Below are positions 25,990-28,079 of a stretch of 35,044 nucleotides of DNA, in pieces (the first letter of the stretch is position 1; the number at the start of each line of letters is the position of its first letter). The stretch is taken from the NCBI GenBank assembly GCA_020851255.1, contig JADZDA010000116.1:1-35044 (forward strand), given 5' to 3'. The position numbers and the translations under genes were made by a program. The stretch comes from Burkholderiales bacterium. Its GTDB lineage: Bacteria; Pseudomonadota; Gammaproteobacteria; Burkholderiales; Casimicrobiaceae. The notes beneath the pieces are model-generated. The model was given only the letters and a program-made list of their open reading frames with translations, made no database searches and was not told where the DNA came from.

Positions 25990-27444
25990 TCAGGCGACGG
26001 CCGGGTCGTCGCAGGCTCCGGCGCGATCCGCCGACGCGCAGCGGGGGACCGGCTCGAATCGTCCCGGCGACTTCGCATGCAGTCGCAGCAGCAGGCGGCA
26101 GACATCGAGGTCGAACGCCGGCTCGGCCGGAGTCGCGAGCAGCGCGTCCAGGTCGGCCTGGTCGCGCGCGGTGCCCAGCCAGTGCCAGTCGCGCACGACA
26201 TGGACGTCGACCCGCTCGCCGTCGGGCGCCGCCTCGCGGACCAGCGCCGGGCCCGGCCACGGCCACGCCGGGATGCGCTCGCCGGCGAGAGCGGCGACCA
26301 GGCGTTCGTCGTGGGTCCGGGCCGGCTCGTCGCCGACGCACGCTCCGGCACAACGCCTGAGCTGACGGGCGAAACAGGGGCCGTCGCGCCGTTCGAGGCC
26401 CAGGCGTGACCAGCACAGGCCGTGCTCGTCGGCCAGGGCGGCGAGCCGCGATCGCATCGCACGTCGTGACGCGTACGGACCCCAGGCGCCGGGGACTGCC
26501 GCAGGGTCGATCGACGCCGCGGGGACGAAGCGCGGCGGGCCGTCGGCAACGACGATCATGACTCCGGCGTCGCTCTTGCGACGCAAAGCCCGGTTGTGCG
26601 CCGGCATCAGCGATTTCACGAGAGCGGATTCGCGCAACAGCGCACCGAGCTCGCCGGCCGTCGTCTCGAACTCGATCCGGCGGATCTCGGCCGAGAGCCG
26701 CGCGTCGGTTTCGCGCTGCCAGTCGGTGCAGAAGTGCGCGGCGACGCGCTCGCGCAGGTGGATGCTCTTGCCGATGTAGAGCGGCAGCGGATTCTCGCCG
26801 TAGAACCGGTAGACGCCGGGGAGATCGGGAATCGCGTCGAGCGCGTCGGCCGGCAGCCGTGGCGGCAGGCTGGGGATCCTGAGCAACCGCTTCACTGCCG
26901 CCTCGATCGCCTCGGGCGGCCGCGATCGGTACAGCGCCAGGACGAATTGCCACAGCGCGCGCGCGTCGCCGAGCGCGCGATGACGTGCACCCGGGTCGAG
27001 ACCGTGGCGCGCGATCAGCGCGTCGAGGCCGTGGCTCTCCGCCTCCGGGTCGAGCCGGCGGGACAGGCGGACCGTGCACAGGGCCCTGGGCGAGAACGCG
27101 CGGCCGACCCGCGCGAACTCGTGCTTGAGGAAACCGAAATCGAAACGCGCGCTGTGCGCGACGAACAGCGACCCGGCCAGCAATTCGTCGATCCGGGCGG
27201 CGATCGCGCCGAACGGCGGGGCGCCTCGAACCATCGCGTCGGAGATGCCGGTCAGCGTCTGGATCGCCGGAGGTATCGGGACGCCCGGATCGACGAGCGA
27301 CGACCATTCGGTCACGCGGGGATCGCCGCCGGCCGGATCGGCGTCGACGCGGACGACCCCGACCTCGGTGACCCGGTCGGCGGACGCGCGGGTCCCGGTG
27401 GTCTCGACGTCGACGAACGCGATGGCGGGGGCGAACAGGCGCAT
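25990..27444 (-). CDS. DnaQ-like 3'-5' exonuclease fused to UvrC/Cho-like GIY-YIG endonuclease
   Basis: A 484-residue two-nuclease fusion. Residues about 8-170 are a DEDDh exonuclease: FVDVETTG (Asp12, Glu14), VAHSARFDFGFL (Asp102) and HRALGDA (His155, Asp160). Residues about 205-290 are a GIY-YIG nuclease: DLPGVYRFY, then LPLYIGKSIHLRERV with Arg231, then IEFETTAGELGALLRESALVK. A UvrC/Cho-like segment GPCFARQLRRCAGACVG follows near residue 375. The family resembles Cho, which makes the 3' incision at bulky lesions in E. coli. The exonuclease may process the incised strand; this is inferred. The gene is divergent from the lexA-like gene, whose operator at 27476 lies 32 bp upstream of this ATG, so damage-induced expression is likely. 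Confidence 0.9.
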   Translation of the reverse strand: MRLFAPAIAFVDVETTGTRASADRVTEVGVVRVDADPAGGDPRVTEWSSLVDPGVPIPPAIQTLTGISDAMVRGAPPFGAIAARIDELLAGSLFVAHSARFDFGFLKHEFARVGRAFSPRALCTVRLSRRLDPEAESHGLDALIARHGLDPGARHRALGDARALWQFVLALYRSRPPEAIEAAVKRLLRIPSLPPRLPADALDAIPDLPGVYRFYGENPLPLYIGKSIHLRERVAAHFCTDWQRETDARLSAEIRRIEFETTAGELGALLRESALVKSLMPAHNRALRRKSDAGVMIVVADGPPRFVPAASIDPAAVPGAWGPYASRRAMRSRLAALADEHGLCWSRLGLERRDGPCFARQLRRCAGACVGDEPARTHDERLVAALAGERIPAWPWPGPALVREAAPDGERVDVHVVRDWHWLGTARDQADLDALLATPAEPAFDLDVCRLLLRLHAKSPGRFEPVPRCASADRAGACDDPAVA

Positions 27445-27459: not shown

Positions 27460-27468
27460 GGGGGGGGG
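27460..27468. repeat. G9 homopolymer tract between the divergent nuclease and lexA-like genes
   Basis: Nine consecutive G residues lie directly upstream of the TTGACC -35 of the lexA-like gene and 15 bp upstream of the nuclease start codon (C9 in its 5' untranslated region). Tracts of this length are prone to slippage. No reading frame is affected, so an effect would be on transcription or translation level only. Confidence 0.6.
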
Positions 27469-27497
27469 TTGACCGACGAACGATCGTTCGTTATGGT
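27469..27497 (+). promoter_or_regulatory. Promoter of the lexA-like gene, spacer filled by operator
   Basis: TTGACC (-35, 27469-27474) and TATGGT (-10, 27492-27497) have a 17-bp spacer. The operator at 27476-27491 occupies all but one base of that spacer. The expected start, 7 nt after the -10, is base 27504, the A of the ATG. No Shine-Dalgarno is present, so the message is predicted to be leaderless. Confidence 0.72.
27476..27491. promoter_or_regulatory. LexA-type operator 1, perfect 16-bp palindrome
   Basis: ACGAACGATCGTTCGT is a perfect palindrome with core GAAC-GATC-GTTC. This is the GAAC-N4-GTTC class bound by LexA of Bacillus and actinobacteria, not the CTGT-N8-ACAG class of most beta- and gammaproteobacteria. 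Its position between -35 and -10 would block RNA polymerase when bound. Confidence 0.8.
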
Positions 27498-27503
27498 ACC
27501 ACC

Positions 27504-28079
27504 ATGTCGAACGATCGTTCCTACCTGGAAACGCTGCAGGACTACTACGCGCGACACCGCGCGTTGCCGTCCTACGCGTCGATCGGCGGCCTGCTGGGGC
27601 TCAAGTCCAAGTCGTCGGTCGCCGCGCTGGTTGCCCGCCTCAAGCTGGCCGGGGTCCTCGAGTCGACGCCCGACCGCCGGCTCGCGCCGACGCGCAGGTT
27701 CTTCGCGCGGCCGGTCGCCGATTCGGCGGTGCGCGCGGGTCTGCCCGAGCGTGTCGACGACACCGCCTCGGATGCGCTCACGATCGACGACTACCTGATC
27801 GAGCGACCGTCGCAGACGGTGCTGATCCGCGTCAAGGGTGACTCGATGGTCGACGCCGGCATCCTCGATGGCGACCTGGTGGTGGTCGAGAAGCGGCCAT
27901 CCGCCCAGAAGGGCGAGATCGTCGTGGCGATCGTCGACGGTCAGTTCACGCTCAAGCGCCTCGACGTCGAGCGCGGACAGTTCATCCTTCGCGCCGAGAA
28001 CAAGGCCTACGCGCCGATCCGGCCCGAGGGGGCGCTCGAGATCTTCGGCGTGATGGTCGGGCTCGTCCGCAAGACCTGA
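27504..28079 (+). CDS. LexA-like self-cleaving repressor (S24 family)
   Basis: A 191-residue repressor, slightly shorter than LexA (202). The N-terminal winged helix is at about residues 5-55, with recognition-helix region GLKSKSSVAALVARLKLAG. Its SSxVxxLxRL pattern resembles Bacillus LexA more than E. coli LexA. The C-terminal S24 domain has a cleavage site Ala78-Gly79 in VRAGLPE, catalytic Ser114 in KGDSMVDAGILDGD and Lys151 in GQFTLKRL. The Ser-Lys spacing of 37 equals that in E. coli LexA. RecA-stimulated autocleavage is therefore expected. The start is ATG 27504, with no ribosome-binding site and a promoter placing +1 at the A. It probably represses itself and the divergent nuclease. Whether a classical LexA also exists in this genome cannot be seen. 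Confidence 0.9.
   Translation: MSNDRSYLETLQDYYARHRALPSYASIGGLLGLKSKSSVAALVARLKLAGVLESTPDRRLAPTRRFFARPVADSAVRAGLPERVDDTASDALTIDDYLIERPSQTVLIRVKGDSMVDAGILDGDLVVVEKRPSAQKGEIVVAIVDGQFTLKRLDVERGQFILRAENKAYAPIRPEGALEIFGVMVGLVRKT
27509..27520. promoter_or_regulatory. LexA-type operator 2, inside the first codons of the lexA-like gene
   Basis: GAACGATCGTTC is a perfect 12-bp palindrome identical to the core of operator 1. It spans codons 2-6 of the gene (S-N-D-R-S). The two centres are 31 bp apart, close to three helical turns, so two LexA dimers could bind the same DNA face. It would also block early elongation from a +1 at the ATG. Confidence 0.72.

Follow-up and report, generated by a model that had tools for sequence, protein, structure and literature searches.

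The window, a stretch of 35,044 nucleotides, comes from an uncultured betaproteobacterium that encodes two DNA-damage repressors. One of them, a LexA-like protein of 191 aa (P0001), is encoded in the window at 27504..28079 on the plus strand, behind a control region that spans 27469–27520. The −35 element TTGACC (27469..27474, plus strand) and the −10 element TATGGT (27492..27497, plus strand) were recognized from the sequence and are separated by a 17-base spacer (27475–27491). This spacer is filled by a perfect 16-bp palindrome, ACGAACGATCGTTCGT (operator 1, 27476..27491, no strand). The ATG start codon at 27504 lies between the −10 element and a second perfect palindrome of 12 bp, GAACGATCGTTC (operator 2, 27509..27520, no strand), which begins at base 3 of codon 2 and ends at base 2 of codon 6. 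A preliminary description of this DNA had reported two palindromes with identical 12-bp cores 31 bp apart, the first between the two promoter elements and the second over codons 2–6, and our inspection confirmed this arrangement. The gene is flanked by a GGDEF gene and by dnaQ::cho (25990..27444, minus strand), which starts 59 bp from lexA and was assigned by profile matches as an RNase_T/DEDD exonuclease with a UvrC/Cho-like part.

The pattern GAAC-N4-GTTC occurred four times in the window, compared with a shuffled mean of 0.51, and a count of four was reached in 1 of 100 shuffles. The remaining two sites, at 2623 and 7369, have cores that differ from those of the operators. In the whole 4.28-Mb assembly, GAACGATCGTTC was present at four places, two of them at lexA. 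In addition, a run of nine G residues (27460–27468) immediately abuts the lexA −35 element, and shorter G runs occupy the same place in L023 and L025. A slippage-prone tract at this position could vary promoter strength or mark a weak spot of the assembly.

P0001 has the domain organization of LexA, with an N-terminal winged HTH and an S24 autoprotease domain. Profile searches matched it to PF00717 (Peptidase_S24, 4.3e-28) and to PF01726 (LexA HTH, 6.4e-4, under the Pfam cut-off), and it scored 109.1 bits against TIGR00498 lexA, narrowly below a cut-off of 110.95 that is an annotation threshold for equivalogs and not a biological defining trait. The AlphaFold model (pLDDT 85.2) retrieved LexA structures as its top Foldseek matches in the PDB (3jso, 1.6e-13, and 3k2z), and the C-terminal half scored higher against UmuD (81.8 bits) than against LexA (57.6 bits) among PDB sequences. 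Moreover, the Ala-Gly cleavage site and the catalytic Ser and Lys residues of LexA, described earlier as intact, correspond to A78–G79, S114, and K151 and were invariant in 27 of 27 aligned orthologues. This alignment comprised 27 of the 30 orthologous loci; L031, L036, and L042 were omitted because an upstream in-frame start left their true start unsure. Inspection of the locus showed that the gene does not lie within an imuA-imuB-dnaE2 cassette, unlike LexA2 of the Pseudomonas putida type. These domains, residues, and model, together with the tree described below, identify P0001 as a noncanonical LexA.

The conservation of the operators was then evaluated among the orthologues. GAAC-N4-GTTC was found upstream of noncanonical lexA in all 30 loci, with 56 sites in total (shuffles: mean 0.20, maximum 2), so that a further LexA trait, an operator of its own in its own promoter, is present as judged by sequence. 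In 29 of the 30 loci, with L046 as the exception, the box lies within a promoter frame defined by the loose pattern TTGNNN-N15..19-[TC]ANNN[TA]. Operator 2 was identical at every base in all 22 rows whose protein starts with M[SA]NDRS, although it requires synonymous codons that are rare elsewhere in those genes (GAT for 79 of 313 Asp and CGT for 36 of 350 Arg). The number of such rows expected from codon use under an assumption of row independence was 0.43, a value that is not a probability because the rows are related. In L049, L050, and L051, which have divergent N-termini, a second GAAC-N4-GTTC instead precedes the point at which homology begins. Both sites are hence conserved in relatives, which supports the earlier reading of a LexA-type repressor with a two-operator promoter, and this conservation of the box is, at the level of sequence comparison, strong evidence beyond chance.

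Phylogenetic placement was assessed using a quick tree with SH-aLRT support and no bootstrap, which contained 15 of the 27 alignment rows, 52 hand-picked loci of 80 homologue loci, and 13 of 27 classical LexA loci. The homologues dropped were mostly partial matches and near-duplicates, together with L062, L122, L127, and L130. P0001 fell into a clade of 31 rows (SH-aLRT 99) with Gallionella-type, Methylobacillus, Sulfuricellaceae, and Thiobacillaceae homologues, and the 13 classical LexA rows fell apart from this clade. The Gallionella-type proteins share 54–59% identity with P0001. The LexA motif of Sideroxydans and Gallionella is reportedly GAACGaaCGTTC, with a regulon said to be comparable to that of other betaproteobacteria; P0001 resembles these proteins both in clade membership and in motif class, and a GAAC-class operator is, by the same report, already described for betaproteobacteria. 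The noncanonical betaproteobacterial LexA is attributed to Sanchez-Alberola et al., 2015 (J Bacteriol 197:2622), a work cited in PMC8565304. Unlike the four Gallionella-type genomes, all of which lacked a classical LexA over the cut-off (they may be incomplete), the genus of the window has both repressors in 15 of the 19 genomes searched for both.

The sister group of the P0001 clade consists of 12 proteins from Patescibacteria, Nitrospirales, Omnitrophica, Spartobacteria, Lentisphaerae, and a deltaproteobacterium, and GAAC-N4-GTTC was found upstream of 11 of the 12 genes (L068, L071, L072, L074, L077, L079, L081–L083, L085, and L086). The presence of the box in these distant relatives suggests an old or laterally spread pairing of LexA and box. 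Among the 34 homologue loci tested, 23 had the box within 250 bases, and it was not seen near 6 of the 31 genes of the wider clade, including those of Methylobacillus (L056) and Desulfobacillus (L064). GAAC-N4-GTTC is also the box class of Bacillus-type LexA (DinR), which P0001 shares. Unlike P0001, however, the Firmicutes and actinobacterial proteins form another group in the tree, in which 4 of 17 rows had the box. Since the two lie in different tree groups, their common box may be convergent or ancient.

The preliminary description had proposed a search for a second, classical lexA, and one was found in the same genome on contig C182 (PF01726, 90.8 bits). P0001 and this protein share 38% identity over residues 22–189. 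The classical lexA promoters of the genus mostly carry ACCGnA-N5-ATACGGT, which resembles CTGT-N8-ACAG with one base altered per side, and the order-level relatives L157 and L159 retain CTGT-N8-ACAG at classical lexA. The corresponding box in the window's genome, ACCGAACGTTTATACGGC, is one base off the genus pattern. A slightly looser pattern matched 13 of 15 classical lexA windows (15 of 16 genus loci, L172 being missed by the motif), a count that is circular because the pattern was derived from those same promoters. The error-prone polymerase gene dnaE2 is an independent check on the classical box. The exact classical box was sought in eight genomes and located at nine positions distributed over six of them, preceding classical lexA in four cases and dnaE2 in five; G000 and G001 had none. 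Two of the five dnaE2 genes were named by NCBIfam and the rest by motif or by tblastn to those two; in the window's genome, dnaE2 was not located. In G014, imuA and an imuB-type gene lie slightly downstream of classical lexA.

The two box sets did not overlap in the tested promoters. GAAC-N4-GTTC was absent from all 15 classical lexA promoters, and the classical box was absent from all 30 noncanonical lexA, all 10 recA, and all 11 mraZ windows. From the distribution of its box, the classical LexA is apparently the one with the tiny regulon. A classical LexA was also sought in 14 genomes with named records that encode the noncanonical LexA or one of its homologues; in 10 none scored above the cut-off, but many are MAGs and may be incomplete.

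We then examined which genes carry the noncanonical box. On the recA contig of the window's own genome, a GAACGNNCGTTC box lies upstream of the (partial) recA, and GAAC-N4-GTTC preceded recA in 9 of 10 usable windows, the window's genome included (shuffle mean 0.03). These windows came from 10 of 12 genomes, G001 and G025 having only a partial recA, and recA of G050 had no exact box. In six of the nine, TAT follows the box directly, and in G024 and G040 the box reads GAACGATTGTTC. Operators of the GAACGnnCGTTC type are therefore present at both lexA and recA, a trait of noncanonical LexA, and the unusual LexA probably controls recA, as far as box positions indicate. Furthermore, the box was found before uvrB in G014, G019, G001 (two loci), and G024, that is, in four of seven box-scanned genomes, as sites that came from the box scan and not from an unbiased uvrB search. 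None was recognized before uvrB in G000, G006, and G009, with 36 of 64 box places inspected in six relatives.

The box also preceded mraZ in 6 of 11 windows (shuffle mean 0.12), taken from 11 of 12 genomes. In G001, which the window motif missed, the box was seen separately, so that seven of eight genus genomes tested have it. An exact box was absent from 5 of the 11 windows, and three of these five have a site with one mismatch. Among the rows listed (n = 5), the box lies 323–415 bp upstream of the MraZ motif. The gut SOS meta-regulon predicted in PMC3998124 includes uvrB and mraZ along with a type I restriction gene, and in EMSA B. subtilis LexA bound an mraZ site. The mraZ sites are more credible because of this in vitro binding and the occurrence of uvrB in the gut meta-regulon.

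A further candidate is dnaQ::cho, which lies next to lexA in divergent orientation in 18 of 45 loci, with about 41–113 bp between the two. At such distances the lexA operator also lies in the control region of dnaQ::cho, which makes this gene a probable co-target of operator 1. Whole-genome counting of bare GAACGNNCGTTC was rejected as regulon evidence, since the counts deviated from the reversed control in both directions among relatives (21 vs. 0 in G000, 8 vs. 15 in G006, 6 vs. 16 in G009, and 3 vs. 9 in G024); many of the 21 places in G000 fall inside reading frames. A perfect 24-bp palindrome at C38:26520, between a radical-SAM gene and a sulfhydrylase gene, was left out of the regulon as its neighbours did not cluster with those of the box places inspected in relatives. 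DUF1800, Ig-like, and methylase-like neighbours of the box, each seen once, were likewise left out. Gene calls around both kinds of box places are heuristic and do not represent annotation.

Two other observations concern single genomes. In G019 (C43:12756, L235), the box lies upstream of a frame that by eye resembles an N-6 DNA methylase and recalls the restriction gene of the gut SOS meta-regulon. In G000, GAACGCGAGTTC or its complement accounts for 11 of the 50 GAAC-N4-GTTC places listed (100 in all) and is spread over many contigs, perhaps as a dispersed element or a codon habit.

Taken together, we consider it likely that the SOS response of this genus is split between two repressors, the noncanonical LexA governing the core repair genes and the classical LexA the mutasome. 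P0001 is likely a member of the noncanonical betaproteobacterial LexA family that represses its own gene and cleaves itself. With a LexA dimer bound at operator 1, RNA polymerase would be blocked at the promoter of lexA and probably also at that of the divergent dnaQ::cho gene; binding of another dimer to operator 2, at a distance of three helical turns, would strengthen repression. Upon DNA damage, RecA filaments would trigger cleavage of P0001 at A78–G79, which would derepress lexA, recA, uvrB (where it has the box), and dnaQ::cho, and probably also the mraZ division cluster. The classical LexA would act on its different box, ACCGnA-N5-ATACGGT in the genus, and would repress chiefly the imuA/imuB cassette of its own locus, along with dnaE2. 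With two LexA proteins on different boxes, the SOS response would therefore be split. This model builds on genes, residues, conserved boxes, and two box sets that are non-overlapping in the tested promoters, and it predicts from them binding, cleavage, induction, and cooperativity as well as the control of dnaQ::cho and mraZ.

In the preliminary description, P0001 was instead a second LexA with a small regulon of its own; on that view it would be accessory, and the classical LexA would govern the standard SOS response, recA included. Two LexA genes are indeed present together, and only four perfect GAACGATCGTTC places exist in the assembly. However, of 10 recA windows, 9 have the noncanonical box and none the classical one, and in the eight genomes searched every exact classical box lay before classical lexA or dnaE2, which makes this arrangement improbable. 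With the box before recA in nine of ten genomes, uvrB in four of seven, and mraZ in seven of eight, the inference of a private regulon looks inverted on the present sequences. Thus, the LexA-type repressor, its conserved two-operator promoter, and the second, classical LexA of the preliminary description are supported, and the small separate regulon is not.

Somewhat less improbable, yet still unlikely, is cross-talk, in which both LexA proteins bind both box types and a single SOS regulon has two repressors. GAACG is found inside the classical box of the window's genome, ACCGAACGTTTATACGGC, and inside a few others, but exact boxes overlapped in none of the tested promoter sets and the proteins are 38% identical (residues 22–189). 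The palindromes might also be operators of another regulator, for example of the TetR family (AACGnnCGTT-type box), with the LexA-like protein as a mere neighbour. TetR-type operators can resemble such palindromes, and the 24-bp palindrome at C38:26520 could be one. Against this, the box travels with the P0001 clade through different phyla (23 of 34 loci), sits in the promoter spacer of lexA itself in 29 of 30 loci, and is common to recA and uvrB, which are classic SOS genes; in addition, none of the six window reading frames that were scanned matched TetR. We regard this reading as the most remote of those considered.

The split SOS response was also compared with known two-LexA systems. In P. 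putida, two lexA regulons coexist and LexA2 runs lexA2-imuA-imuB-imuC, according to PMC3901139 and PMC5261740. As in LexA1/LexA2 of that species, so described, there are two LexA proteins per cell, one of which is tied to an imu mutagenesis cassette. Unlike in those descriptions, the cassette-associated LexA of the window's genus is classical-looking, and the LexA linked to recA is of the GAAC type. A literature search limited to titles and abstract openings, with few subscription journals covered, returned no report of a GAAC-type LexA at recA paired with a classical LexA at dnaE2.

In the model proposed in PMC8565304 (Figure 10), a LexA that has diverged after lexA duplication retakes the SOS regulon upon loss of the primary LexA. 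The window's genus resembles the intermediate step of this duplication-and-takeover model, yet the newcomer comes from a distant clade. We therefore reason that lateral acquisition of the noncanonical LexA is likelier than local duplication. The genus might represent a living intermediate of SOS takeover, in which the noncanonical LexA took recA, uvrB, dnaQ::cho, and the mraZ cluster, and the ancestral-type LexA became a private mutasome repressor with a shifted box; we put forward this evolutionary reading tentatively, at slightly less than an even chance. If it were true, the cell would govern accurate repair and mutagenesis through separate repressors, neither of which binds the other's sites, and the two could differ in threshold and timing. 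In this genus, both repressors seem to be present and to have already shared out the regulon, recA having gone to the newcomer, which makes the intermediate state of a takeover directly testable. This opens the questions of the order of gene transfer and of the separate tuning of accurate repair and mutagenic bypass. Moreover, the two-operator lexA promoter with its divergent repair nuclease gene offers a compact control region for bench work.

Two further loci of relatives deserve mention. G014 contains a second LexA-like paralogue (C7:307221, L226) that is 59% identical and has its own GAACGATCGTTC upstream. In the order relative G050 (C74), a Y-family polymerase gene (L262:2162–3394) lies approximately 100 bp downstream of noncanonical lexA, which ends at L262:2061.
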